Shown one piece after another: positions 40,003 through 55,852 of a stretch of 64,000 nt of DNA (within the stretch, counting starts at the first letter, position 1; every line of letters starts with the position of its first letter). Both the position numbers and the translations under genes were made by a program. The stretch covers positions 124,001 through 188,000 of the forward strand of contig VIRH01000109.1 in assembly GCA_008107755.1 (NCBI GenBank), read 5' to 3'. Under the pieces are notes generated by a model that saw only the letters and a program-made list of their open reading frames with translations, did no database searches and was not told where the DNA came from. This DNA is from Rhodobacterales bacterium (GTDB taxonomy: Bacteria > Pseudomonadota > Alphaproteobacteria > Rhizobiales > Stappiaceae).

Positions 40003-40478
40003 CGGCCCGCCTCCCGGACAATTTCGTTCATGGCTTCGTCATCCAGCCGGCCGTGGAGTTCGCCGTCGAACATGGCGGCGGGTGCGCAGGAGCAGAGCCC
40101 AAGGCAGAAGACCGGTTCCAACGTCACCTTGCCGTCCGGTGTCGTCTCGTGCCAGTCGATGCCGAGCGCCTTGCGCACGCCCTCGGCAAGCTCGTCGCCG
40201 CCCATGGACTGGCAGGCTTCCGCCCGGCAGATCTTGAGGACATGGCGGCCTGCGGGTTTCTCACGGAAATCGTGATAGAAGGTCATGACGCCATGGACGT
40301 CGGCCCGGCTGAGGTTCAGCCTGTCGGCGATGATGCGCAGGGAGGCTTCCGGCACGCAGCCAAGATCCTTCTGAACATCATGCAGGATCGGCAGAAGCGG
40401 GCCTTCGCTCGCCAAATGATCTTCGACAATTGCGGAGGTCCGTTCTGCGACCTCCTGCGCCGGCATTTGCAAGGCCAT
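39999..40478 (-). CDS. fdsG: NAD-dependent formate dehydrogenase gamma subunit
   Basis: NuoE-like 2Fe-2S subunit of 159 residues. The four cluster cysteines are in CRAEACQSMG and CLGLCSCAPAA; the helical N-terminal half carries LGCVPEASLRIIADRLNLSR then ADVHGVMTFYHDF. First structural gene of fdsG-B-A-fdhD-fdsD. Ninety-one bases separate it from the LysR gene upstream; that gap should contain the promoter. Confidence 0.95.
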   Translation of the reverse strand: MALQMPAQEVAERTSAIVEDHLASEGPLLPILHDVQKDLGCVPEASLRIIADRLNLSRADVHGVMTFYHDFREKPAGRHVLKICRAEACQSMGGDELAEGVRKALGIDWHETTPDGKVTLEPVFCLGLCSCAPAAMFDGELHGRLDDEAMNEIVREAGR

Positions 40479-40569
40479 GCGGAATCTCCCTCAGTCGCGC
40501 TGGACTTGAAGATGTCACAGCGCAGGGAAACCGATCAATATCGCGGTTCCGTTGAGCGATTGCACATTC

Positions 40570-41475
40570 CTATAGAGGAGTATCCGACTCCACTTTTGGC
40601 GCCTCCATCCGCTTTGCCAGGCGCAGCATGGCGGCGATCATCGGCGCATGCGGTTCTCGCCGCGTGGCCACCAGCCCGACCATCGTTCCCGCGTCCGGTT
40701 CGGTGATCGGAATGGTCCTGAGCGTTCCTCCCGCGAACGTGTCTGCGAGCGTCTTCGGAACGATGCTGGCCCATTTTCCCGTTCTGACGTGGGCGAAAAG
40801 CGAGACGATGGAGTCCGATTGAAGCGTCGGCGCCACGTCCGTGCCGGCCCTTGCCAGGATGTTGTCCACGATCCTCCGGTTCTGCATGCCCTTGGTCAGG
40901 AGACACAGCGGAATTTGGCTGACCTCCCGCCAGCTCACCTTGCCCCGGTCCGAAAGCGGTGCGCCTTCGCTGGTGACAAGACAATAGGTTTCCCGGTAGA
41001 GCGGGATCTGGACAACCTTGCCGACCGGTTCGTTGCCCAGATACGTGATGCCGACATCGATCTCGAGGTTTTCCAGAAGGGACAGAATTTCGGTGGACGA
41101 GCGCGACAGCACCGAGAAGGTCACCCCCGGATTCTGATCGGCAAAGGGCGTCGTCAGTTCCGGAACGAAGGTCAGAGCAGTCGGAATGGTGCCGATGCGC
41201 AGATGTCCGCTCAGGCCGTCGCGCACGGCTTTCAGTTCCTGCTGCATGGTGCGCGCGTCGGCCACCAGCCGCCTGGCCCATTCCAGCACCCGCTCGCCTT
41301 CGGGCGTCAGCCCCTGGAACCGCGAGCCGCGCAGTACCAGCAGAACGCCGAGTTGTTCTTCCAGCTGTTTTATGGTCGCCGAAAGGGTCGGCTGGGTCAC
41401 ACCGCACTCCTCTGCGGCGCGGCCGAAATGCTTCTCCTGCGCCAGGGCAATGAACATTTCCAGCTTGTCGATCAT
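40570..41475 (-). CDS. LysR-family regulator adjacent to formate dehydrogenase operon
   Basis: Regulator of 301 residues from the ATG at 41475 (MIDKLEMFIALAQEKHFGRA). The helix-turn-helix reads RAAEECGVTQPTLSATIKQL; the effector domain starts near residue 92 (LRIGTIPTALTFVPELTTPF). It is co-oriented with and directly upstream of fdsG, the common position of an FDH-linked LysR regulator (FdsR in Cupriavidus responds to formate). The frame upstream of the chosen ATG is open but runs through the pot terminator and lacks homology. Confidence 0.88.
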   Translation of the reverse strand: MIDKLEMFIALAQEKHFGRAAEECGVTQPTLSATIKQLEEQLGVLLVLRGSRFQGLTPEGERVLEWARRLVADARTMQQELKAVRDGLSGHLRIGTIPTALTFVPELTTPFADQNPGVTFSVLSRSSTEILSLLENLEIDVGITYLGNEPVGKVVQIPLYRETYCLVTSEGAPLSDRGKVSWREVSQIPLCLLTKGMQNRRIVDNILARAGTDVAPTLQSDSIVSLFAHVRTGKWASIVPKTLADTFAGGTLRTIPITEPDAGTMVGLVATRREPHAPMIAAMLRLAKRMEAPKVESDTPL

Positions 41476-41674
41476 GTATTCCGCCCGGACGGCAGTGCCG
41501 CTCTTCCTAGTCTGCAAGACAGGGCTCAGAGAACCCGCTTCATCCATAACACGGAATCGGGAATTTTGCCGTCTGGAGCCGGCGCAGTCTGGCGCGGATC
41601 CGCCGCGGGCAAGCCTGTTGAAAAACGGCTGGGCTTTCCGTGGGTGTTGCGGAACCGAAACTGCACCATGAACG

Positions 41675-41710
41675 AAAAAAGGGCTGCGCCGTAAAAACCC
41701 GGCGCAGCCC
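41675..41710 (-). terminator. Rho-independent terminator of the ten-gene cluster
   Basis: GGGCTGCGCC (41681-41690) and GGCGCAGCCC (41701-41710) form a perfect 10-base stem with a 10-base loop, followed on the minus strand by TTTTTT (A-run 41675-41680). It starts 40 bases after the stop of the potA-like gene and defines the 3' end of the long minus-strand unit. Confidence 0.92.
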
Positions 41711-41749
41711 GTTTCAATCAGCGAAGATGTCTTGCGACAGTGAAAGCAA

Positions 41750-42856
41750 TCAGTCCCTGAGGACGGCCATGGCCTCCTGCGACCAGCTTGCCCAGACCGG
41801 AGCCTCGCCGAGGCCTTCCGCAACGGCGGTGTCGACATAGGCACGCATCGCAACGTCCGGCGCGTCTTCCACCCTGAGTTCCAGCTCCGTCCGGCTGCCC
41901 TTGAAGATCCGGCCGGATACCCGGACCGGAACCGTGTTGGGTTGGTCCTGCGGCTTGTCGGGAGACAGTTTCAGGCCTTCGAGACGGATCGAGGCGGCAA
42001 CGCTATTGCCTGTCTGCAGACCGCCGGAAACCGGCGGCCGTCCGGCCAGCTTGATGCCGCGCCAGTCGAGTGTGACATCTGCCCCGTTGACCGCATCGAC
42101 ACGCCCTTCGATCAGGTTGGTTTCACCGACGAATTCGGCAACGAAGCGCGAAGACGGGTGGAAATAGAGTTCTTCCGGCGTTCCGTCCTGTTCGACGACG
42201 CCCTTGTTCATCACGACGATGCGGTCGGACATGGTCAATGCCTCGTCCTGGTCGTGGGTGACGAAGAAGAAGGTCTTCGACGTCCGGCGCTGGATCGACT
42301 TCAGCTCCGCCTGTACCTGGCCACGCAGCTTGGCATCGAGTGCGCCGAGCGGCTCGTCGAGAAGCAGAAGAGCCGGATCCGGCGCTAGGGCACGTGCCAG
42401 TGCGACGCGCTGGCGCTGACCGCCGGACAGCTGATCCGGCAACCGGTCGGCCAGGGCCGATAGCTCCAGAAAGCTCATCAGTTCATCACAGCGGCGGGCG
42501 ATTTCGCTCTTGCCGAGGCCCTTCAGCTCCAGCCCGAACGCGATGTTGCGGCGGACGGTCATGTGAGGGAACAGGGCATAGTCCTGAAACACCATGTTGA
42601 CCTTGCGCTTGTTGGGCGGAAGCTTCGTCACGTCCTCGCCGTCGACGATCACGCGACCGGACGTCGGTGTTTCGAAACCGCCGAGAATTCTGAGCGTCGT
42701 GGATTTCCCGCAGCCCGACGGGCCGAGGAAGGTAACGAACTCGCCTTCGCGGATGGTCATGCTCAGGCTCTGCAGCGCCTGGGTATCGCCGAACCGCTTG
42801 CTGACCTGATCCAGACGGACGATTTCGTTGGACGACTTATCCTGAATGCCTGTCAT
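41750..42856 (-). CDS. Spermidine/putrescine-type ABC transporter ATP-binding protein (PotA-like)
   Basis: ATPase of 368 residues. Walker A GPSGCGKST, Q-loop MVFQDYALFPHM, signature LSGGQRQRVALARAL, Walker B LLLLDEPLGALD and switch FVTHDQDEAL are complete; from about residue 240 a TOBE domain follows (FVGETNLIEGRVDAVNG), as in PotA and FbpC. Partner of the permeases at 42862-44642 and the receptor at 44915. Last gene of the long unit. Putrescine, spermidine, other amines or ferric complexes are all carried by relatives; the substrate here is open. Confidence 0.92.
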   Translation of the reverse strand: MTGIQDKSSNEIVRLDQVSKRFGDTQALQSLSMTIREGEFVTFLGPSGCGKSTTLRILGGFETPTSGRVIVDGEDVTKLPPNKRKVNMVFQDYALFPHMTVRRNIAFGLELKGLGKSEIARRCDELMSFLELSALADRLPDQLSGGQRQRVALARALAPDPALLLLDEPLGALDAKLRGQVQAELKSIQRRTSKTFFFVTHDQDEALTMSDRIVVMNKGVVEQDGTPEELYFHPSSRFVAEFVGETNLIEGRVDAVNGADVTLDWRGIKLAGRPPVSGGLQTGNSVAASIRLEGLKLSPDKPQDQPNTVPVRVSGRIFKGSRTELELRVEDAPDVAMRAYVDTAVAEGLGEAPVWASWSQEAMAVLRD

Positions 42857-42861
42857 TGTTC

Positions 42862-43644
42862 TTATCCTTTTTGCAGCCGGCGCATGGACCGTTCGGCCCA
42901 GATTCCGAGAATGGCAGTCATCGCGAGGACGACGGTTGCGATCGCGTTGATCTCCGGTGACATGCCGGAGCGAAGCTTGGCGAAGATGAGCACCGGAAGG
43001 GTCGGCTGGTAGCCCCCCAGGAAGAAGGAACGCACGAAATCGTCGAAGCTGATCAGCATGCAGAAGACACCGCCGCCGATGAGCGCCGGACGCAGATAGG
43101 GCAGCGTGACCCTTGCAAAGGCGATCAACGGATCGGCTCCGAGGTCGCGGGCCGCGTCCAGGTAGCTCGTCGGCAGGGTGCTGAGGCGGGCGGAGACGAT
43201 CAGCACCACAAAGGGAACGTTATGCACCGCGTGACACCAGATGATCGCGCCGGTTCCCGGCGGTATCCCCCAGAGCTGGGCGTAGATGCGGAACGAGATC
43301 GCCGAGATGATGCCCGGAATGAGCGCCGGGAGAAGCGTCAGCCCGAAGATGACGCCCTTGCCGATGAAGCCCCGCCCGTTCAGCAGGACCGCGATCCAGA
43401 CGCCGACGATGAGAGATACCAGGGTTGAGGAAAAGCCGATCAGCATGGAATAGCCGAACGCGCTCATCACCTCGGTGTTCTCGAAGACGCTCATGTACCA
43501 GTCGAGCGTCCAGGACCGGATCGGGAAGCCGATGAACTTGGAGTCCTTGAACCCCATCATGACCATGAGCGCCAGCGGAACGAAGATGTAGAGAACGAAT
43601 GCCCAATAGAGGATGGACATCACGATGCGAGTGTTGCGGGTCAT
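42862..43644 (-). CDS. ABC transporter permease, PotC-like
   Basis: Membrane subunit of 260 residues from the ATG at 43644 (MTRNTRIVMSILYWAFVLYI), overlapping the PotB-like stop by ATGA. Six membrane segments; the EAA loop that contacts the ATPase reads YLDAARDLGADPLIAFARVT. The usual PotC length is about 260. The following ATPase begins five bases later. Confidence 0.93.
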   Translation of the reverse strand: MTRNTRIVMSILYWAFVLYIFVPLALMVMMGFKDSKFIGFPIRSWTLDWYMSVFENTEVMSAFGYSMLIGFSSTLVSLIVGVWIAVLLNGRGFIGKGVIFGLTLLPALIPGIISAISFRIYAQLWGIPPGTGAIIWCHAVHNVPFVVLIVSARLSTLPTSYLDAARDLGADPLIAFARVTLPYLRPALIGGGVFCMLISFDDFVRSFFLGGYQPTLPVLIFAKLRSGMSPEINAIATVVLAMTAILGIWAERSMRRLQKG

Positions 43645-44642
43645 TTGCGCACTCCCTTGCTCAGCCAGGTCATGAAACGTCCGAAGCCGAGGCTGATGGC
43701 CAAGGCCGTCACGAACATCAGGCACGCAAAGGCCGCACCTGTCGGCCATTCGTCACCGGCGGCATGGAAAAAGCCGGCGATGGTTTCGGCAAAGACCGTC
43801 GTCGACGGGCCGCCGAGGAGAACCGGGGTTGCGTAGAAACCGGTCGAGATCAGGAAGACGAGCGTACAGCCGGAGGAAATGCCCTCGAGCGACAGCGGCA
43901 GCGTCACCCGCCAGAACCGGGTCCAGGGACCGGCACCCAGATCGGCCGCGGCATCGGTATAGCTGCGCGGCAGTTTCTCCAGCGCGGAATAGAGCGGCAG
44001 AAGCATGTAGAGCGCTGTCAGGTAGACGATGCCGACGGAGATGGAAAAGCCCGTGTACATGAACGGAACCGGGCGATCGACGAGGCCGAGCCACTTGAGC
44101 GCAAGATTGACCGCGCCGTTGTTGCCCAGAAGGATCATGATCGCGTAGGTGCGCACGATTTCCCCGACCCAGAACGGGATGAGGAGCAGCAGCAGGAAGA
44201 TCATCTGGTTCGACCGCTTGACGTGCCTGGCCAGGAAATATGCGACCGGATAGGTCAGGATGAGCGTCGCGAATGTCAGCGTTGCGGCAAAGACCAGCGT
44301 GCGGATGAAAGGCATCAGGAAGATGGAGCTGCCGAAGAACCGCAGATAATTGTCGGTGGTGAAATGCTGCGGGTGATCGGCCGCGACCGGGTACGCATCG
44401 AGAAAGCTGACATAGAACATCTGCGCCATCGGACCCAGGTGCTGGGTGATGATCCAGAGCAGGGGGAAGGCAAGCAGAAGGATGAACTGGCGTCTTGGCG
44501 AACTCAGCAGAGCGTCCGAGAACGCCTGATAGAGCCGCGACCCGGCGAGAGCTCCCCAGAACGAGCGACCGTCCTTCGTCTGGTGATCAACGCTGCTCTT
44601 TCCCGCCAAGGCTGCAGCGCCGGATGGGACCTTTCCAGGCAT
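43641..44642 (-). CDS. ABC transporter permease, PotB-like
   Basis: Membrane subunit of 333 residues, about 45 longer at the N-terminus than classical PotB owing to a polar leader (PGKVPSGAAALAGKSSVDHQ). Membrane segments start at FILLLAFPLLWIITQHLG; the EAA loop is YTDAAADLGAGPWTRFWRVT. ATG at 44642. A strong hairpin lies in the 272-base gap to the receptor gene upstream; the gap otherwise shows nothing recognised. Confidence 0.92.
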   Translation of the reverse strand: MPGKVPSGAAALAGKSSVDHQTKDGRSFWGALAGSRLYQAFSDALLSSPRRQFILLLAFPLLWIITQHLGPMAQMFYVSFLDAYPVAADHPQHFTTDNYLRFFGSSIFLMPFIRTLVFAATLTFATLILTYPVAYFLARHVKRSNQMIFLLLLLIPFWVGEIVRTYAIMILLGNNGAVNLALKWLGLVDRPVPFMYTGFSISVGIVYLTALYMLLPLYSALEKLPRSYTDAAADLGAGPWTRFWRVTLPLSLEGISSGCTLVFLISTGFYATPVLLGGPSTTVFAETIAGFFHAAGDEWPTGAAFACLMFVTALAISLGFGRFMTWLSKGVRK

Positions 44643-44824
44643 TGTTTTTCCTTTGAACAGACAACCTTAGGCCGCTGGCAAGGCCGTGGTTGCGCTAATT
44701 GTAGCAAATCGAGCGTCTGCCGCTTCGCGTTCCGACACATCTCCCCGAAACCCGGAGCTATGAACCCGGATCGCCGGATGTCAGAAAAACGCGAGTCCGG
44801 CCAGGCAGACATCCCGGCAGAACT

Positions 44825-44852
44825 GTCCGGAGCCAGATATCAGGCTCCGGAC
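44825..44852 (-). promoter_or_regulatory. Intercistronic hairpin after the PotD-like gene
   Basis: GTCCGGAGCC (44825-44834) and GGCTCCGGAC (44843-44852) form a perfect 10-base stem with an 8-base loop (AGATATCA), 62 bases after the receptor stop. No T-run follows, so read-through into the permease genes is expected. It probably protects the receptor message from 3' decay. Confidence 0.7.
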
Positions 44853-44914
44853 ACTGGTCTGCTGTCCGCCCATATCACCGGGCGCACCCGTAAGGCGGCG
44901 GCGGTCTGACGGGA

Positions 44915-46021
44915 TCAGGCTGCCTTGATTTCCTCGACGGCCGGGTCAACAAGACCGTACTTCATCTTGTTGGCTTCAGCGCGGAAGAACTTCATGTTGG
45001 CGAGTTCGTCTTCCGGGAAGGTCGTAGACGCTTTTTCAGCATCTGAAAGATACTTGGAAGCGTCCTTGTAGGTAGAGATGAAGCCGGAGGCCTTGGTCAT
45101 TTCCGCACCGATTTGACCGGACGCCAGGATGGCGTTCAGGAAGGTGTAGGCGTTGTCGGCGTTCGGTGCATTGTTGGCGATGTTGTAGGTGTAGACAAAG
45201 CCGTAGCTGCCTTCCTTCGGAATGCTCATCGCGACCGGGAAGCCGTCGTTCATGAGAGCGGCGATCGGGCCGTTCCATGCGCAGGCCATGACGATGTCCT
45301 GGTTGACGAACATCTGCTGCACTTCGGCGCCACCGTCGTAGTACTTGCGCACCAGCGGCTTATTCTCGATCAGGAAGTCACGGGCTTCCGCCACGATCTC
45401 GGCGGCTTTCTCCGGATCATCCAGATAGGCGACCATGTTGCCGTCATAGCCCATCTTCAGCATGACGATCGACATCATGTCCTGAAGCACGTAGGCGCTC
45501 TGGCCGGCGTACTTGTCGGAGAACATCGTGTCCCAGGTCATGGACTCTTCCTTGGACAGCACGTCGGTGTTGTAGGCAAACACTTCCATGCCGGACAGGA
45601 TCGGAGCACCCCACTTGTGGCCGTTGATCGTCGACCAGTCGCTTTCGGAATAGACCGGGTTGATGTTGTCCCAGCTCGTCAGACGGTCGGTGTCGAGCGG
45701 TGCGAGCAGGTCGCTGTCGATGAACTGCAGGAAACGGTGCCCTGCAACAGTCAGGATATCGACCGTCGGGTTGGAGGCTTCGGCCGCCAGCAGGTTGAAC
45801 TGCTTGCCCTGGTCATCGACAAGACGGACATTGACCTTGATTCCGGTCTCGTCCTCGAACTGCTTCTTGAAATCCTCCGGAACGAAGTTGGCATAGGTCC
45901 AGATATTGACTTCGCCGCCTGCGGCATAGGACCGGCGCAGATAGGCCGGCGACGCCAGTACGGCGCCGGTTGCGGCGGCAGTGCCGAGGAACTTTCTTCT
46001 ATTCAAGACAAGCTTCTTCAT
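44915..46021 (-). CDS. PotD-like extracellular solute-binding protein with Tat-type signal
   Basis: Receptor of 368 residues from the ATG at 46021. The N-terminus MKKLVLNRRKFLGTAAATGA contains twin arginines followed by FLG, a Tat signal, with cleavage near SYA-A; Tat export is common for PotD relatives in Alphaproteobacteria. Mature start EVNIWTYANFVPEDFKKQFE; blocks DILTVAGHRFLQFIDSDLLA and YNTDVLSKEESMTWDTMFSD fit SBP_bac_8 amine receptors. The amine-recognising acidic residues cannot be assigned safely by eye. Follows the opine-dehydrogenase-like gene by 75 bases. Confidence 0.9.
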   Translation of the reverse strand: MKKLVLNRRKFLGTAAATGAVLASPAYLRRSYAAGGEVNIWTYANFVPEDFKKQFEDETGIKVNVRLVDDQGKQFNLLAAEASNPTVDILTVAGHRFLQFIDSDLLAPLDTDRLTSWDNINPVYSESDWSTINGHKWGAPILSGMEVFAYNTDVLSKEESMTWDTMFSDKYAGQSAYVLQDMMSIVMLKMGYDGNMVAYLDDPEKAAEIVAEARDFLIENKPLVRKYYDGGAEVQQMFVNQDIVMACAWNGPIAALMNDGFPVAMSIPKEGSYGFVYTYNIANNAPNADNAYTFLNAILASGQIGAEMTKASGFISTYKDASKYLSDAEKASTTFPEDELANMKFFRAEANKMKYGLVDPAVEEIKAA

Positions 46022-46096
46022 ATGGATGCTCCGTTTTTTGTCCGCGTGCTTATTATATCGATTTCGCGGCACAGTCCCCTCTAATCCCGGATCAGG

Positions 46097-47212
46097 TCAA
46101 CCCTGTCCGGTTCCTTTCGGCAGGCGACCGGTCGAGACCGCCTCCCGCAATGCAGTCAAATCCAGCTTCTCCAGGCCCATCGCCTGAAGCAGATCATTTT
46201 CTCCAAAGAAATCACGGCCGTACATGGCCGAGAAGATCTCCACGCCTGCCCGGTGCAGCACCGCCGGACAGCCGGCCATGTCGCCCAGAACCACCGTCAC
46301 CGCCAGACCGAACGGAACGTCCTCGGTCACGTAGCGGCTGTCGCCGGTCGACGGCCCCGTGCCACCGCGCCCGTGCTCGTGCATTTCCTGGTTCATGTTG
46401 CTGATGGACGCCACCGGCACATGAAACGACAGATGGAAATGCTCGAAGATCGTTCGGACAGACAGGCCGAGTTTTTCTGCAATCGCAAGACGTTCCTTGT
46501 CCAGCGCCTCCAGCAGACGGCCGACATTCGGCGTCACGTTCTGCCCCTGGCTCCAGGTCTCGCCCCGCTCCATCCGCGTCATGTTCGCAAGGGCGATGCC
46601 CATGTGATTCTGCGGATTGAGATTGGAGAGCGTGATCGCCAGAAGCCCGTCACGCAGATTGAAACGGTCACCGAACAGCTTTTCGCATAGCGCCTTGCCG
46701 GTATCGGTCGCGGTCTGCGGAATGGTGCACATGTCGATGAGGGAGCGGACCGTATTGACCTGAACGTGATCCGGCGCCTGCCGGCGTCCCGTCACCGCGG
46801 TCGTGCCCCAGGCGGTGATCGGCAGGTCGACACCGCGCTCCGCCAGTCGCTCGGCAAGATAGAGCGCGCCAAAGGCCGCGTGGGAGGAAATAATGACGGC
46901 CTGTGCGTTGCGCAAGTGCGGCACCAGCGCGTCCATCACGGTCTTGTGGCCGTAGCCCGGCACTGCGAGCACGATCACATCGTTGGCTGTCGCAAGTTCG
47001 GCGGCGTCGGCGGCAATCGAAGGTTCGAAGGCCAGTTCGATAGCGCCCGTGGCTTTCAATTCGCGTGTTTCGCGCAAACCTGCGGTGCCTTTGCCGGACG
47101 GCGACCAGAGCATCGGCTCGTGCCCCATCTGCTTCAAAAGCGCCGCGGTCGCAAAGGCGATCGAACCGGCTCCGGCAATTCCGACTTTCATGGAAGGCCC
47201 TGCCACCGTCAT
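46097..47212 (-). CDS. NAD(P)-dependent opine dehydrogenase-like protein
   Basis: Oxidoreductase of 371 residues. The Rossmann motif is VGIAGAGSIAFATAALLKQM; the C-terminal half has the octopine/nopaline dehydrogenase pattern with NPQNHMGIALANMTRMERGE then the catalytic-type HEH run (FEHFHLSFHV and MHEHGRGGTGP). Opine dehydrogenases interconvert an N-(carboxyalkyl) amino acid with amino acid plus oxo acid. The ATG at 47212 overlaps the upstream stop by ATGA; an ATG seven codons in would also suit the fold. Next to an amine-type importer and an aminotransferase, a catabolic role on imported opine-like compounds is plausible but unproven. Confidence 0.82.
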   Translation of the reverse strand: MTVAGPSMKVGIAGAGSIAFATAALLKQMGHEPMLWSPSGKGTAGLRETRELKATGAIELAFEPSIAADAAELATANDVIVLAVPGYGHKTVMDALVPHLRNAQAVIISSHAAFGALYLAERLAERGVDLPITAWGTTAVTGRRQAPDHVQVNTVRSLIDMCTIPQTATDTGKALCEKLFGDRFNLRDGLLAITLSNLNPQNHMGIALANMTRMERGETWSQGQNVTPNVGRLLEALDKERLAIAEKLGLSVRTIFEHFHLSFHVPVASISNMNQEMHEHGRGGTGPSTGDSRYVTEDVPFGLAVTVVLGDMAGCPAVLHRAGVEIFSAMYGRDFFGENDLLQAMGLEKLDLTALREAVSTGRLPKGTGQG

Positions 47213-47793
47213 TCGCTTCCCTTCCGGACCGGATCACCGAGCACGTGCATCAGCCGGTTAGCCCAGCCGAACAGCGACGTGGAGAGAATGAGGTCCAGGA
47301 TCTCGGCTTCATCGAGCCCGGCGTCCCGCAATGCCTTCATCTGTTCCGGGGTTGCCTCGGAGGGCGTCTGGGACAGGGCGTAGGCAAAGTTGAAGATCGC
47401 CCGATCGCGCGGCGACAGATCGGCCTTCAGGCCCTTGGCGAAGAGTTCGTCAGTGACGGTCGTGTCCTTGGCGAGCTTTGCGTGTCGATCCGCATGCACC
47501 GCGGCGCAGTAGATGCAGTGATTGACGATGGAGGCAGCGATCGCACCAAGCTCACGCTCGTCGCGGGACATGCCGCCCTTGTCGTACATGATGCCGTTGA
47601 AGAGCGGCGAGCGCACCTTCAGCGTCTCGACGTCATGGGCCAGGGTCAGCACATAGGCGGAGACCTTGGTGTTGGAAGGCGTGACCTGAAGTGCCTCGAG
47701 CTGCTCGGGCGTCGCGTCTTCCAGCTTGATCGGTTCGACCCGGGGACGCCATGCCGGCACGTTGCGGGTGAATTTCGTGAGGACGTCGCTCAT
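47209..47793 (-). CDS. AhpD-like carboxymuconolactone-decarboxylase-fold protein with CxxC
   Basis: Protein of 194 residues from the ATG at 47793. The AhpD motif reads IASIVNHCIYCAAVHADRHA with the redox CxxC and following His, and the C-terminal helix ends with WANRLMHVLGDPV, typical of uncharacterised peroxidase-related proteins. It could act as alkylhydroperoxidase or thiol reductant supporting the monooxygenase. ATGA-type overlaps link it to the genes on both sides. Function inferred from fold only. Confidence 0.8.
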   Translation of the reverse strand: MSDVLTKFTRNVPAWRPRVEPIKLEDATPEQLEALQVTPSNTKVSAYVLTLAHDVETLKVRSPLFNGIMYDKGGMSRDERELGAIAASIVNHCIYCAAVHADRHAKLAKDTTVTDELFAKGLKADLSPRDRAIFNFAYALSQTPSEATPEQMKALRDAGLDEAEILDLILSTSLFGWANRLMHVLGDPVRKGSE

Positions 47794-48287
47794 GCCGCGG
47801 TCTCCTTCATGAGGCGGATGCCGGCCAGGACACGGACATGGTACGACATGAACGCGTTGATTTCGCAAAGCCGGACGATGTCCGCATCGGCAACGCCGCT
47901 TTCCTGAAGCGCCTTGATGTCACCGGCTTTCACATCACGGGTGTTGGCCGCGACCTTGTCCATGAAATCGCAAACGGCTTCCATGCCCTGCGCCTTTCCG
48001 GACTTGAGCGGATCTGCCAGTTCGGCGACTTCCTTGTCGCCGATGAGGCCACAGTAGCGGTCGACCAGCGCGGTTTCCCCGTTGAGGGCCGCGATGCGGG
48101 CTGCCAGCGCCGCTCGCACGTCATGTGACCAGGCTCCGGTATCCGCGGGTTTCAGGACCGCTTCCTCGGTGACCTGCGTCATGCCGAGAAGATTGGCCCG
48201 CAAGTCCAGGGCACCTGCAATCGGGGTCCCTGCGGGAACGGCGGATAATTCCAGAAGCGTGTTTTTCGTCAATGTATCGGTACTCAC
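47790..48287 (-). CDS. AhpD/CMD-fold protein lacking the CxxC
   Basis: 165 residues from a GTG at 48287 that overlaps the upstream stop (GTGA). The all-helical pattern with RVLAGIRLMKETAA at the end and a middle DADIVRLCEINAFMSYHVRV resembles the carboxymuconolactone decarboxylase fold of its neighbour, but the redox Cys pair is missing; single cysteines occur elsewhere. Perhaps a non-redox partner forming a heteromer with the 194-residue protein, or a lyase. The family call is tentative. Confidence 0.6.
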   Translation of the reverse strand: MSTDTLTKNTLLELSAVPAGTPIAGALDLRANLLGMTQVTEEAVLKPADTGAWSHDVRAALAARIAALNGETALVDRYCGLIGDKEVAELADPLKSGKAQGMEAVCDFMDKVAANTRDVKAGDIKALQESGVADADIVRLCEINAFMSYHVRVLAGIRLMKETAA

Positions 48288-49771
48288 TGTGCTGCCTCGA
48301 CCTTTTCCCCTTCGAATGACGGAAGCGGTGTCGGCGTCCATTCGCTGCCGTCCAGTTCGGGCGACGAATAATCCTGAAAAGCCTGCCAATGGGCGGCAAT
48401 GTCCTCGCGGTAGAGTTCGGCGGCGATTGCCTTGGACAGCCAAACGGCGCCTTCCGAAACGCCCGGGATGTCGCCTGACACCTTGCCGAGGCTGGCCGTT
48501 GCGCCGTAGTTGAAGCAATAGACGTTCGAGAGCCACGGCGCATTGCCCGGCGTCTTTTCGCGGAAGGTGAAGTCGCCGTTCAGATACGGGAAGCAGCCGA
48601 GGTCCCGGTTCTGCTCGTCCGCCGGCGGGGTGTAGACGTCGCTCCACAGAGCGATTTCCATTGCGGCGGGACCGAATTCGGAGCGCGCTTCCGGATCGAC
48701 CGTGAAGCCCGTGCCAAGGATCAGGAAGTCCGGCTCGTAGACAGAATTTTCGCCGAGCGTCATGCGCAGACCGGTTTCGGTTTCCTCCACCTTGCGGACC
48801 GGCAGATCAAAATGGAAATGCGCATTCTCGTGCCGCGAAACCCGGAGGGTCGATCCGTGGGGCGGAGGCGTCTGGGTAACGAAGGAATAATTCATGAAGC
48901 GCCAACGCCATTCGTCCGGCATCGCCCCGTAACCGGCGGTGAAGCCGAAGCTGCCGATGCCCATCATCTTGTTGATGGTCGGCATTTCCTTGCGTCGGAT
49001 AATGTGGCGCACTTCGGCAGCGCCATGCTCGAGCGCTTCGGCGGAGTTGTCGACGGCGGATGCGCCCACACCGATGACGGCGACCTTCTTGCCCTTCAGG
49101 GCATCGAAATCGATCGTGTCGGCGCTGTGCGCCCAGTATTTGCGGGAGATCCCTTCCACGAAGCCCGGAATGTTCGGCACGCCGGTGCCGTCGCGGCCGG
49201 TCGCCATGACGAGCTTGCGCACCAGAATGGATTTCTGCTCCGCACCGGTCAGATGCAGGCGCAGAAGATCGCCTTCCGGTTCGATCAGGTCCAGAGAGAC
49301 GCCGTTCTCGACCGGAATCTCCAGGACCTTGCGATACCATTTCAGGTATTCCATCCACATGGGCCGGGGGATCTTGTCGAGTTCTTCCCAGGCATCGGTG
49401 CCGAACTGGGCCCGGTACCAGGCCTGGAAGGTCAGCGTGCCATGGCCGAAGGCCGGACCGGTCAGTGTCTTGGGCGAGCGCAGCGTTTCCATGCGAGCAT
49501 AGTTGAGCCAAGGACCTTCAAGACCTTCCGGGCTGCGGTCCAGGACGCGGATGTTGTCGACGCCGCCGGTGCGCAGCGACATCCACGCGACCATGCCGCA
49601 CATGCCGCCGCCGATAATGACCACATCGGTGACCGGTTCCCCACCGACCGTCTTCGGCGGAACCCAGGACTTGCCCGGCCAGCACAGGAATTCGAGGTTC
49701 TCCCATACTCTTGCTTCCAGGGTTTCCAGGCCAGCTCCGTCCAGGCGGAACGCGGAACGCGGGTCAGACAT
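48284..49771 (-). CDS. Class B flavin-dependent monooxygenase-like protein
   Basis: FAD/NADPH protein of 495 residues. Two dinucleotide motifs are clear: VVIIGGGMCGM (about residue 50) for FAD and VAVIGVGASAVD (about 230) for NADPH, joined by the FMO-like stretch KYWAHSADTIDFDALKGKKV. Relatives insert oxygen at N, S or carbonyl carbon (FMO, N-hydroxylating and Baeyer-Villiger types). An N-terminal region with FLCWPGKSW is conserved in an uncharacterised subgroup. Located 38 bases after the MFS gene in the long unit. Substrate probably the amine or amino acid handled by its neighbours (inference). Confidence 0.88.
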   Translation of the reverse strand: MSDPRSAFRLDGAGLETLEARVWENLEFLCWPGKSWVPPKTVGGEPVTDVVIIGGGMCGMVAWMSLRTGGVDNIRVLDRSPEGLEGPWLNYARMETLRSPKTLTGPAFGHGTLTFQAWYRAQFGTDAWEELDKIPRPMWMEYLKWYRKVLEIPVENGVSLDLIEPEGDLLRLHLTGAEQKSILVRKLVMATGRDGTGVPNIPGFVEGISRKYWAHSADTIDFDALKGKKVAVIGVGASAVDNSAEALEHGAAEVRHIIRRKEMPTINKMMGIGSFGFTAGYGAMPDEWRWRFMNYSFVTQTPPPHGSTLRVSRHENAHFHFDLPVRKVEETETGLRMTLGENSVYEPDFLILGTGFTVDPEARSEFGPAAMEIALWSDVYTPPADEQNRDLGCFPYLNGDFTFREKTPGNAPWLSNVYCFNYGATASLGKVSGDIPGVSEGAVWLSKAIAAELYREDIAAHWQAFQDYSSPELDGSEWTPTPLPSFEGEKVEAAQ

Positions 49772-49809
49772 TATCAGGTCCTTCTGTTCGCCCTTGCGGG
49801 CGCTTCATT

Positions 49810-51120
49810 TCAGGCATCCCACCGGGGATGCAGGTCATCAATATAAAAGGCATGGGCATGAACCTGCCGTCCGTGACCGACCAGATGCGGATGGTCGGGC
49901 GGCAGATCCGGGTGCGAATGCAGGCGAGATTCCGGATCGTTTTCCGGGAAAATCGCCAGGCCGACAAGGGTTGCCAGCGCGGAGGCCATGCCAAGTAGCA
50001 CAAGCGAGGTTTCGGGGGAAAGGGCTGTGCCGAGCCAACCCGCCAGAGGATAGGCGATCAGCCAGCCGGCGTGAGACAGGGAAAACTGCGCGGCAAAGAC
50101 GGCGGGCCGGTCGGGGTCGGAGGCAGAGCGGGTCAGCACAAGGCCGCCAGGTGTCAGCGTCAAGGTGCTTGCAGCGCCGAACAATCCCCAGAGAAAGACC
50201 AGTTCCGCCAGTGGAACCGGCACGAATATGAGCGGTGTCAGCAAGGCAAAGGAAAGCGTTCCGGCCGCCATGATGCGGCGCTCGGAAAAGACCTTCATGA
50301 GCGACGGCAGGCCAAACGCCATCAAGGCCGCGCCCACACCGAAACCGCCCATCAGCCAGGGATAGACCTCCTCGGCATTGTCGAAGCGGCTGCCTGCGAA
50401 CACGATGGTGTTGACGAGAACCCAGGCCATGACAAGCGACAGGGCAAAGTTCAGGACGAAGAGGCCGCGAAGTCGCGGCGTGCGCGCATAGATCCACAGT
50501 CCATGCAGGGCCCGCTTGCGGAACGGCTCCAGGTGCGAGGCGATCACGTCGACCCTGACATGCGCAAGGAGGATGAACACGGCCGATCCGACAAAGCCGA
50601 GGGCCGCAAGAACGAACAGGTACTGCGGGTTCATGAAGGCGAGCGCGGCTCCGACCAGGATCGGCGTCACGATGCTTTCCAGCGTGTAGGCGATCCGCGA
50701 CAGCGCGAGCGCTTCCGAATAGGCGTCCTTTTCTGGAAGCACGGCCGGGATCATGGACTGGAAGAGAGGGGTGAAGGCCGAGGAGACGGCGAAGAAGACA
50801 AAGGCCAGACCCGCGACCGACCACCAGGACCCGGCAAAGGCGAGCGGGATCATCAGGAGCAACCGGCCGATGTCGAGCCCGATCAATGTCGGCGACCTGG
50901 GCGTGCGGGCCAGGAGCGCCTGGGCAATCGGGGAAAATCCGACATAGGCCACCATCTTCAGGGCGAAAAACAAGCCCAGCATGGGGCCGGCATGAGTTTC
51001 GCCACCCATTCGCCACGCCGCCAGCGACAACCCCGCCGTCATCAATCCGACTCCGGTCAGCGACAGGACCTGCGAGGCGAAAAGAAAACGGAACGTGGGG
51101 TGACGTAGCGGGGTCAGCAT
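49810..51120 (-). CDS. MFS transporter
   Basis: Twelve-segment permease of 436 residues; begins MLTPLRHPTFRFLFASQVLS, a common start of MFS efflux pumps (MFS_3/enterobactin-exporter-like). Cytoplasmic loop between segments 2 and 3 reads LARTPRSPTLIGLDIGR, a variant of the MFS signature; TM6-7 are joined by LEPFRKRALHGLWIYARTPR. The C-terminal tail is His-rich (SHPDLPPDHPHLVGHGRQVH then AHAF), which is unusual and might bind metal. It starts two bases after the aminotransferase stop. Export of a product of the cluster is likely. Confidence 0.88.
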   Translation of the reverse strand: MLTPLRHPTFRFLFASQVLSLTGVGLMTAGLSLAAWRMGGETHAGPMLGLFFALKMVAYVGFSPIAQALLARTPRSPTLIGLDIGRLLLMIPLAFAGSWWSVAGLAFVFFAVSSAFTPLFQSMIPAVLPEKDAYSEALALSRIAYTLESIVTPILVGAALAFMNPQYLFVLAALGFVGSAVFILLAHVRVDVIASHLEPFRKRALHGLWIYARTPRLRGLFVLNFALSLVMAWVLVNTIVFAGSRFDNAEEVYPWLMGGFGVGAALMAFGLPSLMKVFSERRIMAAGTLSFALLTPLIFVPVPLAELVFLWGLFGAASTLTLTPGGLVLTRSASDPDRPAVFAAQFSLSHAGWLIAYPLAGWLGTALSPETSLVLLGMASALATLVGLAIFPENDPESRLHSHPDLPPDHPHLVGHGRQVHAHAFYIDDLHPRWDA

Positions 51121-51122
51121 CT

Positions 51123-52664
51123 TCAGGTCACGGGCTTGTCTGAGACTTTGGCGGAGAACCGACCGTTGGAGACGTCAGCTACATAATCCTGAACGTAGGA
51201 TGCACTTTCGCGGGCCAGACGATCTACCGACTTAATGACGAAGTCGACCTTATCATCGCGCATAAGTGGTGACAGGTTCAACCGGACCCACCCGGGTTTT
51301 TCAATTTCCTGCCCCGCGTCGAGCGCTTTCACGATGTCCGCGGACGCCGCCTGGTCGATGACAAGAAGCGAATGGGCGTATGAGCCGGCACAGGCGCAGC
51401 CGCCGCGAGCCTGGATGCCGTGGATGTCGGAAAGCATGCGCGTGAAGAGCTGGTGATGGACCAGCTTGCCTTCGCTGTCGCGCACCCGGAAGGAAAAGAT
51501 CGGCAGTGCCTCGGCGTCCGGTTTGCCCAGAAGGTCCAGATACGGATTCTGCTTCCAGACCGAAAGCGCGCGCTCTCGCAACTCCTGCTGGCGGGAGGCG
51601 AGCCAGGACGGGTTGAGGGCATCCTTCACCATCATCGCCAGACCTGCGCGGATATCACCGAGCACGTTGGGTGTGCCCCCCTCTTCCCGGTTTTCCAGGC
51701 TGGTGGAATAGACGTGATCCCAGGGCGACACGAAAGAGACGGTTCCGCCGCCCGGAAGCGTCGGTGTCTTGCGCCGGGCTATGGCGTCGCGAACGATCAT
51801 GACACCGGAGCCGCCCGGCCCGCCGGGGAACTTGTGCGGCGAGAAGACGATGGCATCCTTGGCCGCGTCCGTGCCCGCATCGGTGTGCATCGGCACATAG
51901 GGACCGGCGCAGCCGTAGTCCCAGATCGCAAGAGCACCGTATTTGCGCAGAAGACGGGTGACGGCCTTGTCGTCCGTCAGAATTCCGGTGACGTTGGATG
52001 CTGCACCGAAAGCGCCGACCAGCAGTCCGGCATCCCTGTTCTCGGCAAGCAGCGCTTCCAGCGCCGCCATGTCCACGCCGCCGCGGGCACTTTCCGGCAC
52101 CTCGATGACGTCTGCTCCGCTCTCGCGCCAGGGAAGCAGGTTGGAATGGTGCTCGTAGGGGCCGATCAGCACGACCGCGCGTTGCCCGGAGGCAACGACT
52201 GCCGGAATGTCCAGCAGCATCACCAGCCGGTTGAGACCGGCCGTGGATCCCGATCCGGTGAAGACGACCGAATAGCCCTCGCCTGCCCCGACGATGCGGG
52301 CAATCTCTGCCCGGATCTCCATCCGCAGCCGCGTAACGAATGCGCCGCAATAGGATGCCTGCGTGTGGCTGTTGGCGTAATAGGGCAGAACGCTGTCGCG
52401 GATGAAATCCTCGATCTGGGCGAGAGCCCGGCCGGAAGCAACGTAATCGGCATAGACCAGCTTCTTCGGGCCGTAGGGTCCCGGAACCAGGGCATTGTCA
52501 CCGATCAGTCCGCCACACAGCGCCTCAACGAGATCCGGTTGCCGCAGGGCGTCACGGAAGGTGTCCAGAACGGTCTCCTGAACCCCTGACGGTGATGTGC
52601 TCTCGGCGAGATTGGATAAATTGCTCATAAGTGTATTGTTGACATTCAGAACGTATGATTTCAT
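51123..52664 (-). CDS. Class V aminotransferase / cysteine-desulfurase-like PLP enzyme
   Basis: PLP enzyme of 513 residues from the ATG at 52664 (GGA eight bases upstream); an ATG at 52628 is an alternative without ribosome site. The Schiff-base Lys is in IVFSPHKFPGGPGGSGVMI; VFTGSGSTAGLNRLV is the PLP-phosphate loop; near the C-terminus ARGGCACAGSYAH recalls the desulfurase cysteine loop, with two cysteines. It is about 100 residues longer than NifS. Possible activities: desulfurase, cysteine lyase, kynureninase-like or transaminase. First gene of the long unit, divergent from an Lrp-type regulator across 52 bases. Confidence 0.87.
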   Translation of the reverse strand: MKSYVLNVNNTLMSNLSNLAESTSPSGVQETVLDTFRDALRQPDLVEALCGGLIGDNALVPGPYGPKKLVYADYVASGRALAQIEDFIRDSVLPYYANSHTQASYCGAFVTRLRMEIRAEIARIVGAGEGYSVVFTGSGSTAGLNRLVMLLDIPAVVASGQRAVVLIGPYEHHSNLLPWRESGADVIEVPESARGGVDMAALEALLAENRDAGLLVGAFGAASNVTGILTDDKAVTRLLRKYGALAIWDYGCAGPYVPMHTDAGTDAAKDAIVFSPHKFPGGPGGSGVMIVRDAIARRKTPTLPGGGTVSFVSPWDHVYSTSLENREEGGTPNVLGDIRAGLAMMVKDALNPSWLASRQQELRERALSVWKQNPYLDLLGKPDAEALPIFSFRVRDSEGKLVHHQLFTRMLSDIHGIQARGGCACAGSYAHSLLVIDQAASADIVKALDAGQEIEKPGWVRLNLSPLMRDDKVDFVIKSVDRLARESASYVQDYVADVSNGRFSAKVSDKPVT

Positions 52665-52716
52665 CACTTAATTCCATCGTTCAAAGGCTCAAATTCGTTC
52701 ATTCAATCGACATATC

Positions 52717-53193
52717 ATGATAAAATTAGATCAAACTGATTGCCGCATTCTGACGGAACTCCAGCGCGATGCATCTCAGTCGCAACGGGAGCTCGCCGAC
52801 AAGGTCGGGCTCTCCCAGAACGCCTGCTGGCGCCGCCTCAAGGCTCTGGAGGCTGACAACGCCATCCGTCGCCGGACAGTGCTCTTGAACCGCGAGCATC
52901 TCGGTGCCGGTCTTGTCGTGATCATGATGATCCGCACGCGTCATCATTCGCTGAGCTGGCTGACGACATTCCGAAAACACGTCTCGTCAATCCCCGACGT
53001 GGTCGATTTCTACCGGATCGGCGGGGACTACGATTACCTGATCAAGGTCGTGACCAACGACATGGGCAGTTACGACAAGATCTACCAGCGGCTGATTTCC
53101 GAAGTTGAGCTTGAAAACGTGACATCCTATTTCGCCATGGAAGCGATCGAGGAACAGCGGCCGATTCCGCTTTTCCGGACAGACGGAAAATAA
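52717..53193 (+). CDS. Lrp/AsnC-family regulator
   Basis: Regulator of 158 residues. N-terminal helix-turn-helix: DCRILTELQRDASQSQRELA then DKVGLSQNACWRRLKALEAD; C-terminal RAM ligand domain with VVDFYRIGGDYDYLIKVVTN. Lrp proteins respond to amino acids, so this one likely senses an amino acid tied to the divergent ten-gene unit. The short AT-rich intergenic region (52665-52716) must hold both promoters. Start: ATG at 52717. Confidence 0.93.
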   Translation: MIKLDQTDCRILTELQRDASQSQRELADKVGLSQNACWRRLKALEADNAIRRRTVLLNREHLGAGLVVIMMIRTRHHSLSWLTTFRKHVSSIPDVVDFYRIGGDYDYLIKVVTNDMGSYDKIYQRLISEVELENVTSYFAMEAIEEQRPIPLFRTDGK

Positions 53194-53526: not shown

Positions 53527-55848
53527 ATGTCCGACCGCACGAGGCTGAATGGCCTCAAGCTGGCAACCGCCGTTGCCGGCTGTGCCCTTCTGTGTGCCCA
53601 GCAAGGCGCGCAGGCACAGCAAGCCCAGACAACTCAGCTTCCCGAGACGGAAGCCGCACCTGCCGAAACGCGCCCGCAGGAGACTTCCGCGTCCCCGGCC
53701 GATGAAGGCACTGTTCTGCTTGATACGATCACCGTCGTTGCAGGCCGGCAGCCGACCACCGTTCTCGAAGTTCCCGGCAACGTCACGGTCGTGAGGGAGG
53801 AGGACCTGCAGAAATACGGCATCTACGACATGCAGGAACTCACGCGGTACATCCCCGGCGTGACCGTCGACCGGCAGACGAGCGCGACCGATCCCTTCAA
53901 CACCTTCAATGGCTTCAACATCCGCGGCGTCGGCGGAAACCGTGTGCTGATGCTGTCGGACGGCTCGCGCATCGCTGAAAGCATCACCGACGGGACACGG
54001 GATTACCTCGATTTCAATTTCGTGCGCCAGGTCGATGTGGTGCGCGGTCCTGCGTCGGTGCTCTGGGGCGCAGATGCGCTTGGTGGTGTCGTTGCCGTCG
54101 AGACACTGGACCCGGAAGACCTGCTCCAGGGTCGGACAATGGGCGGCCAGGGACGGCTCGCCTATGACACGTTCAACAAATACGCCAACGCCTCCGGCGC
54201 CGTTGCCTTCCGTTTCAGCGACACGCTGTCCACCATGCTCGCGATTTCGCGTTACACCAACAGCGAGCCAACCCTTTCCAATGCCCGCGCCGATGGCGGC
54301 GTCTACGGGTGTCCGAGGGATTTCTCGGCCGGCCAGTTGCCCTGCAACAAGTTCGATCCGACGCATACGGAAGGAATTCGCGGCCTTGCAAAGGCGGTCT
54401 GGGAACCGACGAATGAACACCGGTTCGAACTGTCTGCGGATCTCATGCAGCGCAACACCGACGTCGACTACACCAACGGGCTGGGTCCCCAGACCAGTGG
54501 CGACTACGTCAACGACTACGACCGTTTTCTCGATCTCAGCCGCAACCGCTATGCGCTGGAACACACCTGGACGCCGGAGTCGCGCCTGCTCGACGAACTC
54601 AAGACGGTCGTCGCCTATGCGCCGCATACATATGATCGTACCGGCAAGAAGTCCGGCCAGACCTCCGGCGGCGACGACTTTCGCACCGATGACCTTCTGA
54701 AATACACCGAGGATTTCTACGAGCTGGATATCCAGGCGACGAAGACCCTCGAAACGGGGCCCCTCGCCCATGAGCTGACCTTCGGCTTTGATGGCGATTA
54801 TACCGCCCTCGATTACAGCCGCATCGATCGGACACTCAATTTCACGACCGGCGTCTCATCGGAAACCCGCGGCGGCGGCTTCAACTTCGCGAATTCGAAC
54901 ACGACGCGGGCGGACGTCTACCTGCAGGATGTCATCGGTCTTTTCGATGATTCACTCGAGATCACGCCGGGCGTGCGCTTTGCCACCTATCGCATCGAAC
55001 CGGAACCGGATGACGACTACCAACTCGTTCCGGGGTCGGAGCCGAGGGTGCGCGAGGACACCGCTTTTCTGAAAAGCCTCAGCGCGCTTTACCGCATCGA
55101 CAACACCTGGTCGATCTGGGGCAAGTACGGTGAAGGCTTCAAGATGCCGACGGCACAGCAGCTCTATACCTCGCTTCCGGGCACTTTTTTCGACCTGACC
55201 CCGGCCCCCGATCTTGATCCTGAACGGGTCAGGAGCGTCGAGGCCGGCGTCCGGGCCCAGATCGACCGGGGCTATGTTTCCGTGACCGGCTTTTACGCCG
55301 ACTACACCGACTTCATAGAGAGCTTCTACAATCCGCCCGGCACGTCGGAATACACCTACCGGAACCTTTCGTCCGTGGAAGTATGGGGCGTCGAGATGGA
55401 GGGTGCATACGAGCTCACCGACACGCTGACCGCGACCGGCCGCCTTTCCTGGCAGCAAGGCGTCGAAAAGGCCTCGGCCGACTCCGATACCGTGCCCCAC
55501 ACCCTGCCGCCGCTGACGGCGATCGTCGGGCTCAGCTACGTGATCCCGGACTACAACCTCAGTTTCGAAGCGGTCACCACACTGGCGAGCCCGGTCTACG
55601 AGGTGTCCGATGCCGACAGCTTCAAGCCCGGCGGATATGCGCTGCTCGATGTGTTCGGCAGCTGGCAGTTCACCGAAATGGCAAGTCTCGACTTCGGCGT
55701 GAAGAACGTTTTCGACACCCGCTATTTCGAGGCTTCAGCCGCCGGGCGGACACTGACGCCGACGAGCAGCGTTGCGCGCCAGAACCCGCTGGAACTTCAG
55801 ACAGGCCCGGGACGGACGTTCTCCGCATCCCTCAACATAAAGTTCTGA
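53527..55848 (+). CDS. TonB-dependent outer-membrane receptor (haem/iron-compound type)
   Basis: Receptor of 773 residues. Signal peptide LKLATAVAGCALLCAQQGAQ with cleavage near AQA-Q; TonB box DTITVVAG near residue 70; plug domain with PGNVTVVREEDLQKYGIYDM and FNIRGVGGNRVLMLSDGSRI; 22-strand barrel ending in Phe (SLNIKF). In the region where haem receptors have FRAP and NPNL it reads EGFKMPTAQQL and PDLDPERVRSVEAG, a recognisable variant of the haemoglobin/haem receptor family. Controlled by an iron box and followed by three coupled genes. Confidence 0.9.
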   Translation: MSDRTRLNGLKLATAVAGCALLCAQQGAQAQQAQTTQLPETEAAPAETRPQETSASPADEGTVLLDTITVVAGRQPTTVLEVPGNVTVVREEDLQKYGIYDMQELTRYIPGVTVDRQTSATDPFNTFNGFNIRGVGGNRVLMLSDGSRIAESITDGTRDYLDFNFVRQVDVVRGPASVLWGADALGGVVAVETLDPEDLLQGRTMGGQGRLAYDTFNKYANASGAVAFRFSDTLSTMLAISRYTNSEPTLSNARADGGVYGCPRDFSAGQLPCNKFDPTHTEGIRGLAKAVWEPTNEHRFELSADLMQRNTDVDYTNGLGPQTSGDYVNDYDRFLDLSRNRYALEHTWTPESRLLDELKTVVAYAPHTYDRTGKKSGQTSGGDDFRTDDLLKYTEDFYELDIQATKTLETGPLAHELTFGFDGDYTALDYSRIDRTLNFTTGVSSETRGGGFNFANSNTTRADVYLQDVIGLFDDSLEITPGVRFATYRIEPEPDDDYQLVPGSEPRVREDTAFLKSLSALYRIDNTWSIWGKYGEGFKMPTAQQLYTSLPGTFFDLTPAPDLDPERVRSVEAGVRAQIDRGYVSVTGFYADYTDFIESFYNPPGTSEYTYRNLSSVEVWGVEMEGAYELTDTLTATGRLSWQQGVEKASADSDTVPHTLPPLTAIVGLSYVIPDYNLSFEAVTTLASPVYEVSDADSFKPGGYALLDVFGSWQFTEMASLDFGVKNVFDTRYFEASAAGRTLTPTSSVARQNPLELQTGPGRTFSASLNIKF

Positions 55849-55852
55849 TGCG

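Follow-up and report, generated by a model that had tools for sequence, protein, structure and literature searches.

Two described systems stand close to the locus analyzed here. In S. meliloti, the eight co-located genes SMb20278–SMb20285 share one expression pattern, which changes in mutants of glnD and of glnBglnK, and their importer was taken for a polyamine uptake system by similarity (PMC3596328, accessible text). SMb20284 was listed as possible polyamine uptake at a time when such systems were unstudied (PMC3484140, accessible text). In E. coli, CyuR is an activator that is itself activated by cysteine (PMC9040844, accessible text), and YciW is a protein of cysteine tolerance that is linked to CysB (PMC10821248, accessible text). 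The subject of this analysis is a ten-gene operon with a divergent Lrp/AsnC-type regulator gene, located in a 64,000-nucleotide stretch (the window; contig VIRH01000109.1, positions 124,001 to 188,000) of a Rhodobacterales bacterium that GTDB places in the Stappiaceae. It is tentatively proposed, with somewhat less than even confidence, that this operon imports and oxidatively unmasks an N- or S-substituted cysteine-type compound, which is then desulfurated. In window coordinates, the unit consists of the following features:

52717–53193, plus strand: Lrp/AsnC-family regulator, CyuR/DecR-like (Pfam HTH_24 and AsnC_trans_reg)
52668–52716, between the strands: intergenic divergent promoter region between Lrp and PLP5
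51123–52667, minus strand: class V pyridoxal phosphate (PLP) enzyme (PLP5), cysteine-desulfurase-like (Aminotran_5, 129.1 bits; SufS catalytic residues)
49810–51120, minus strand: MFS transporter, accessory (MFS_1, 81.8 bits)
48284–49771, minus strand: FAD/NAD(P)-binding flavin monooxygenase-like protein (FMO; Pyr_redox_3, 55.5 bits)
47790–48287, minus strand: CMD1, CMD_Avi_7170-like, without the conserved cysteine pair (TIGR04029, 63.1 bits)
47209–47793, minus strand: CMD2, AhpD-type peroxidase-related, with E...CxxCxxxH (TIGR01926, 189.4 bits)
46097–47212, minus strand: opine-dehydrogenase-like enzyme (ODH; Octopine_DH, 119 bits; 1bg6, 101.9 bits)
44915–46021, minus strand: PotD/F-type binding protein with a twin-arginine-type (TAT) signal and a changed polyamine pocket (SBP_bac_8, 102.1 bits)
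43641–44642, minus strand: PotB-type permease (PotB model, 172.9 bits)
42862–43644, minus strand: PotC-type permease (PotC model, 149.1 bits)
41750–42856, minus strand: PotA-type ATPase (PotA model, 371.1 bits)
41681–41710, minus strand: intrinsic terminator (11-pair stem, T run)

All ten open reading frames between 41750 and 52667 lie on the minus strand, with the Lrp frame divergent at 52717–53193 (plus strand). The initial annotation had described the same arrangement, with the first gene starting at 52664; on the longest reading, PLP5 starts at a GTG at 52667. Its title gave the gene content incompletely, without the MFS gene and the CMD/AhpD-family pair. Read from 5' to 3', the junctions are PLP5–MFS +2, MFS–FMO +38, FMO–CMD1, CMD1–CMD2 and CMD2–ODH −4 each, ODH–PotD about +75 (PotD ATG at 46021), PotD–PotB +272, PotB–PotC −4 and PotC–PotA +5; CMD1 starts at a GTG at 48287 that overlaps the FMO stop. 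Hence four of the nine junctions are 4-nt overlaps, and the tight spacing (−4 to +38) is interrupted by wider gaps on either side of PotD, as had been stated. The strong closing terminator was also confirmed: 39 nt past the PotA end, on the minus strand (41710–41681), an 11-pair stem is followed by a T run, and its pair count was the highest of the 18 terminator-like sites found between 40000 and 55000 (shuffled sequences: mean 12.1 sites). The earlier view of one co-directional unit with an amino-acid-type regulator is upheld. The window's genome has one ODH match (E 0.001) and one PLP5 match (E 1e-60).

Conservation of the block was surveyed by an FMO-alignment scan of genome contigs, in which 40 loci were listed, at least that many existing, and their gene content was read by tblastn. 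The order FMO-CMD1-CMD2-ODH-PotD-PotB-PotC-PotA was present in 17 of the 40 listed loci; in 10 the Pot genes precede FMO and ODH lies no more than about 10 kb away; and ODH was not found in the fetched stretch of the other 13, some of which are short contigs. In several rhizobial loci, CMD1 is too weak a match for the search threshold, and its absence there can therefore not be read off. The whole eleven-gene set in the same order, with Lrp divergent, was found in nine listed loci (L010–L014, L016, L017, L019 and L042), all Rhodobacterales by record name. L007 and L009 carry the whole set minus MFS only, and in L008 Lrp lies at the opposite end. Within the window's own family, ODH was detected in 22 of 87 Stappiaceae genomes at E 1e-30 and a close ODH (≥61% identity) in 17, the window's included; CMD and PotD genes adjoin ODH in all 17. 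PLP5 relatives are more widespread (72/87 at E 1e-60). A class-wide sample of 385 genomes, with 9 matches for PLP5 (E 1e-110), 4 for ODH (E 1e-100) and 14 for FMO (E 1e-110), the window's genome included, is too thin for use. Since the gene arrangement recurs in other genera, it is not due to chance. Judged by gene content and order, the ten genes and the regulator are one unit common to marine alphaproteobacteria of different orders. A break-up of the block in relatives, which would have spoken against the initial annotation, is not seen in Rhodobacterales (order kept in 9/40 listed loci) and is partly seen elsewhere, since Lrp-PLP5 and the core were also found apart.

The sulfur-related features of the operon begin with PLP5. 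The equivalents of SufS H123, D200, H225, K226, R359, C364 and R379 are retained in all 64 distinct PLP5 rows (>38% identity, >380 residues, the window gene counted once), and E96 and Q203 are not; we take K226 to be the PLP lysine and C364 the persulfide cysteine. PLP5 belongs to no named NCBIfam group, since the SufS (110.9 bits, cut-off 475.1), CsdA, NifS and EgtE (40.1 bits, cut-off 400) scores all lie under the curated cut-offs. Its partners in other loci are sulfur-related. In six of eight annotated plasmid loci with PLP5, a gene for a single-domain Blh-type sulfur dioxygenase starts no more than 50 nt past the end of the PLP5 match, and a TauE-type sulfite exporter gene follows PLP5 and the dioxygenase in two of these. 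By coordinates, a Blh-type neighbor was seen in at least 28 of the best 60 of 79 PLP5 records, many of them from near-identical strains. Over its dioxygenase portion, the R. tumorigenes protein reached 545.7 bits with the Blh model (full-length cut-off 625). In the 21 stand-alone Stappiaceae PLP5 loci listed (L077–L097; 72 genomes of the family match), Lrp is always divergent from PLP5, and an EgtC-like amidohydrolase gene follows PLP5 in 17; one EgtC-like member scored 182.7 bits (cut-off 218.65). By these several signs, PLP5 appears to be a thiol enzyme.

On the rhizobial plasmids L098, L099 and L161–L164, Lrp is divergent from PLP5, after which a single-domain Blh-type sulfur dioxygenase gene follows, and two of these loci also carry TauE. 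This set is a candidate cysteine-to-sulfite operon.

The regulator points in the same direction. The window's Lrp shares 41% identity with E. coli CyuR/DecR (129 bits, compared with 79 for Lrp and 32 for AsnC), and by these scores CyuR/DecR is the nearest of the three E. coli paralogues. The palindrome TCATATGA occurs exactly in 21 of 51 distinct Lrp–PLP5 intergenic regions (100 shuffles: mean 0.19, maximum 2) and with one mismatch in 35 (shuffles: mean 2.95, maximum 7); the regions include near-relatives, and the counts are therefore not independent events. TCATATGA is considered a candidate operator.

The oxidative part of the unit comprises FMO and the two CMD-type proteins. CMD2 scored above the TIGR01926 cut-off (189.4 versus 81.8 bits), and its E81, C93, C96 and H100 are present in 56/56 distinct aligned stretches (>40% identity, >120 residues), which we take to be the AhpD/CMD motif E...CxxCxxxH. 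CMD1 stays under the TIGR04029 cut-off (63.1 versus 100.75 bits), has no Pfam match and lacks the cysteine pair in 11/11 aligned rows. The NCBIfam CMD families of CMD1 and CMD2 also pick up E. coli YciW, at scores under their cut-offs. For FMO, the first dinucleotide-binding motif was found in 32/32 rows and GxGASA in 30/32. The pattern FxGxxxHxxx(Y/F/W), presumably the class B flavin monooxygenase fingerprint, was found in none of the 32, and on this ground the canonical class B enzyme that had been assumed at first is rejected. A single-sequence search gave no PDB relative of FMO at E 0.001, and the best hit of a profile search reached 39.5 bits over a part. An amino-acid-type ATP-binding cassette (ABC) importer also adjoins FMO-CMD sets: one such set includes ODH, and three show none in the stretch read. 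On plasmids, more distant relatives of FMO (31–48%) occur in mixed settings, with dipeptidase/carboxylesterase/ABC genes, urate-type genes or LLM monooxygenases, which do not single out a substrate. In L130 and L132, FMO relatives (37–39%) adjoin purine-catabolic genes (uraD/uraH; 8-oxoguanine deaminase) and possibly point to a different oxygenase role.

ODH was rightly called opine-dehydrogenase-like. Besides N-terminal dinucleotide-domain matches, it scored 119 bits against Octopine_DH (PF02317; gathering threshold 30) and matched N-(1-D-carboxylethyl)-L-norvaline dehydrogenase (CEDH, 1bg6) over the full length (101.9 bits). H203, R293 and D298 are retained in 55/55 distinct aligned stretches (>45% identity, >250 residues); we take them to be the equivalents of the catalytic H/R/D of CEDH. 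Both the PF02317 domain and the catalytic residues expected of an opine dehydrogenase are present.

The unit is modular. The core FMO-CMD1-CMD2-ODH-PotDBCA also exists without PLP5, and the Lrp–PLP5 pair also exists alone. Among the 17 Stappiaceae genomes with a close ODH, PLP5 lies inside the unit in eight, and in one more, G057, contig ends interrupt the locus. In a PLP5 tree of 64 rows (midpoint root; SufS and the duplicate window row left out), the 22 rows labelled in-operon lie on one side of a branch with support of 100/94. This group spans Stappiaceae, Rhodobacterales and one metagenome-assembled genome named Deltaproteobacteria, and stand-alone PLP5 from the same genus fall outside it. 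The label was also given to L074 (from G057), where the contig ends after PLP5 and ODH lies on another contig, and to L021, which is without MFS and Lrp. Long-branch warnings were obtained for L138, L137, L021, L116 and L104, and some long branches meet. As the simplest account, we infer that PLP5 may have joined the core once and that the block has since moved between lineages.

The cysteine-type reading is preferred because the persulfide cysteine of PLP5 is kept, Blh- and EgtC-like genes adjoin PLP5 elsewhere, Lrp is CyuR-like, the CMD families are linked to YciW and the in-operon PLP5 form one group. Gene content and order, residues, block conservation and the sulfur partners of PLP5 can be read from the sequences themselves; the substrate, the Lrp ligand, each reaction and the reaction order are inferred. 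As proposed, PotD and PotBCA would import an amino-acid derivative carrying cysteine or a cysteine-type sulfur group. FMO with its two CMD/AhpD partners would oxygenate the compound at S, N or an adjacent carbon, and FMO-CMD1-CMD2 would handle the resulting thiol or sulfenic product. ODH would take off, or reduce, the N-carboxyalkyl/imine portion, after which PLP5 would desulfurate the freed cysteine via a persulfide, whose sulfur would be oxidized by a sulfur dioxygenase encoded elsewhere. The CyuR-type Lrp, probably responding to cysteine, would turn the unit on. Elsewhere, the window's genome encodes a Blh-type relative (47%) as well as a Kbl relative at 58%; therefore, the end of a sulfur or a threonine/glycine route is available to the cell.

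Several observations weigh against this proposal. Genes for a sulfur dioxygenase, TauE or an EgtC-like protein are absent from the window unit itself, and its own Lrp–PLP5 gap is without an exact TCATATGA. PLP5 lies far from the close ODH in eight of the 17 Stappiaceae genomes, G057 being assignable to neither side, and three of those eight that were fully read (L124–L126) carry a LysR gene in place of Lrp-PLP5. Four genomes carry the core in its rhizobial form, and in three of them no PLP5 relative (E 1e-80) was found. The direct alignment of YciW with CMD2 is weak (38.1 bits), with CMD1 there is none, and an FMO relative at 38.7% stands among urate-pathway genes. The similar core of S. meliloti responds to nitrogen (PMC3596328, accessible text). 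Such a response would suit other amino acids at least as well as cysteine. Finally, ODH and PLP5 each adjoin kbl-tdh in some genomes, PLP5 doing so in a Paracoccus plasmid, which speaks for threonine/glycine rather than cysteine. These neighbors may point to threonine/glycine as the freed amino acid, or they may mark a mere amino-acid island as for cyu/tdc in E. coli, where the cyu genes neighbor the threonine pathway (PMC9040844, accessible text).

The former possibility leads to an alternative that we regard as rather unlikely while giving it real weight, namely that the substrate is a secondary amine without sulfur, either opine-like or linked to threonine/glycine. ODH would cleave it into a keto acid and an amino acid, Tdh-Kbl would finish the latter, and PLP5 would be a mere neighbor handling cysteine. 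Kbl-Tdh were found at the Lrp end in five of the 12 listed loci in which Lrp and PLP5 accompany the core (L012, cut at Lrp, and L008, with Lrp elsewhere, being uninformative), and kbl-tdh adjoin ODH in three of eight ODH-bearing plasmid loci, once in a unit without FMO (L004). The existence of the core without PLP5 is likewise in line with this alternative. However, the four fully read Stappiaceae units (L121, L122, L123 and L127) gave no Kbl match, and in Rhodobacterales kbl-tdh converge tail to tail on Lrp and are therefore separate transcripts. That the in-operon PLP5 form one tree group also argues against a mere neighbor.

Within the cysteine-type reading, one specific version appears doubtful: an aerobic sulfur-opine pathway of marine and plant-associated alphaproteobacteria, in which a cysteine-based opine or a cyclic S-containing imino acid would be imported, oxygenated by an FMO-CMD complex and opened by ODH, and the cysteine burnt via a persulfide under a cysteine-sensing Lrp. 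Neither a sulfur-opine nutrient pathway nor an operon with this gene set was found in the accessible text of the open-licence literature, and a description elsewhere is possible; this agrees with the first impression that no described pathway matches. If the cysteine-type reading is right, a mobile cysteine-type organosulfur pathway of Stappiaceae and Rhodobacterales has been masked by annotation as 'polyamine transport' and 'opine dehydrogenase', and the polyamine label of the published S. meliloti cluster becomes doubtful. The single gene set with its regulator and candidate operator would then be a basis for substrate screens.

A detoxification or thiol-stress unit, in which toxic cysteine or its conjugates are removed and the product is exported by the MFS pump without a nutrient role, is held to be quite improbable. 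CyuR and YciW have been tied to cysteine tolerance in E. coli (PMC9040844, PMC10821248, accessible text). MFS is present in nine full units among the 40 listed loci, and yghU or OsmC genes lie close by in some relatives. Against this, a four-gene importer would be odd for such a role, and MFS is absent from L007, L009 and L123, which are otherwise complete units. Because of these three loci, export by the pump, which the initial annotation had offered as one possibility, is weakened as an essential step and was set aside as a core function.

Uptake and breakdown of a polyamine or simple amine, as the Pot labels and the S. meliloti authors suggest, is highly unlikely. The PotABCD-type architecture and a potA subfamily model near its cut-off (335.5 of 355.6 bits) favor it, and the S. 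meliloti importer was called polyamine-type by similarity (PMC3596328, PMC3484140, accessible text). The Pot models gave a different picture, with all cut-offs missed: PotA reached 371.1 of 482 bits, PotB 172.9 of 348, PotC 149.1 of 326 and PotF 61.5 of 636, and the best binding-protein model, YdcS, 85.4 of 725. The binding protein was then compared with E. coli PotF and PotD in 50 distinct rows (>44% identity, >280 residues, window included). The positions of PotF D247 and D278 (the column of PotD D257) are replaced by Pro and Tyr, and that of PotD D168 by a gap, in 50/50 rows. We take PotF D247 and D278 and PotD D168 and D257 to be the amine-pocket carboxylates. A simple polyamine is unlikely because these carboxylates are replaced. 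The position of PotF E185 (PotD E171) is Asp and W244 is retained in 50/50 rows, F276 is also retained, and the position of PotF D39 (PotD E36) is variable, being acidic in 20/50, so the binding protein could still hold a single amino group. None of the ten genes matched amine oxidase, GABA or spermidine pathway families. Polyamine uptake was set aside in view of the changed binding pocket and the unreached cut-offs, and with it the term 'amine-type importer' in the polyamine sense.

Biosynthesis, in which an imported amino acid is N/S-oxidatively modified and the product exported by the MFS pump, is very improbable: FMO and MFS do share an operon, but no ligase, synthetase or carrier family was matched among the ten genes, MFS is dispensable, and FMO-CMD pairs adjoin importers of two families (Pot-type and amino-acid-type).

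The genes around the operon appear to have other roles. Past Lrp, at 53527–57610 on the plus strand, a hemoglobin/transferrin-type TonB-dependent receptor gene, which scored 329.6 bits (cut-off 323.75), probably forms a separate iron/heme unit together with an ABC exporter-like gene. Beyond the terminator, the stretch 38446–41476 carries, on the operon's strand, a gene of LysR type (LysR_substrate, 124.3 bits) together with NuoE/NuoF-like genes (2Fe-2S_thioredx, 148.1 bits; Complex1_51K, 151 bits), presumably resembling the beginning of an NAD-linked formate dehydrogenase operon. Farther away, at 59114–63982 on the minus strand, Gfo/Idh-type, sugar-isomerase/epimerase-type and sugar ABC transporter genes were recognized by eye from the open reading frames. 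The earlier interpretation as a whole is partly supported.

Compared with known systems, the likeness to EgtC/EgtE, whose functions we take to be in ergothioneine biosynthesis, lies in the pair of stand-alone PLP5 and EgtC-like genes, both of which score below the curated cut-offs. The cysteine desulfurases SufS and CsdA share catalytic residues with PLP5, which lies outside an Fe-S operon and is without SufS E96 and Q203. CEDH, presumably from Arthrobacter, is similar to ODH over the full length and shares the catalytic H/R/D. The S. meliloti cluster SMb20278–SMb20285 (LysR, PotFHIG-like importer, FMO-like, CMD1, CMD2) has the same FMO-CMD1-CMD2-Pot content as the window unit, but its regulator is LysR rather than Lrp, PLP5 and MFS are missing, and the gene order is another. 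These tags were matched to the FMO-CMD-Pot locus by gene content and by their numbering, and we assume the match to be correct. In the record of S. meliloti R28 (L100), an ODH gene adjoins the FMO-CMD1-CMD2-Pot set. E. coli cyuPA/cyuR differs in its parts: its desulfidase CyuA is sensitive to oxygen and import falls to CyuP alone, whereas the window unit has oxygenase-type proteins, a PLP enzyme and an importer of the ABC type. In its logic it resembles the window unit, combining a cysteine-type regulator of the Lrp family with an importer and a cysteine-degrading enzyme, with the threonine pathway adjacent (PMC9040844, accessible text).

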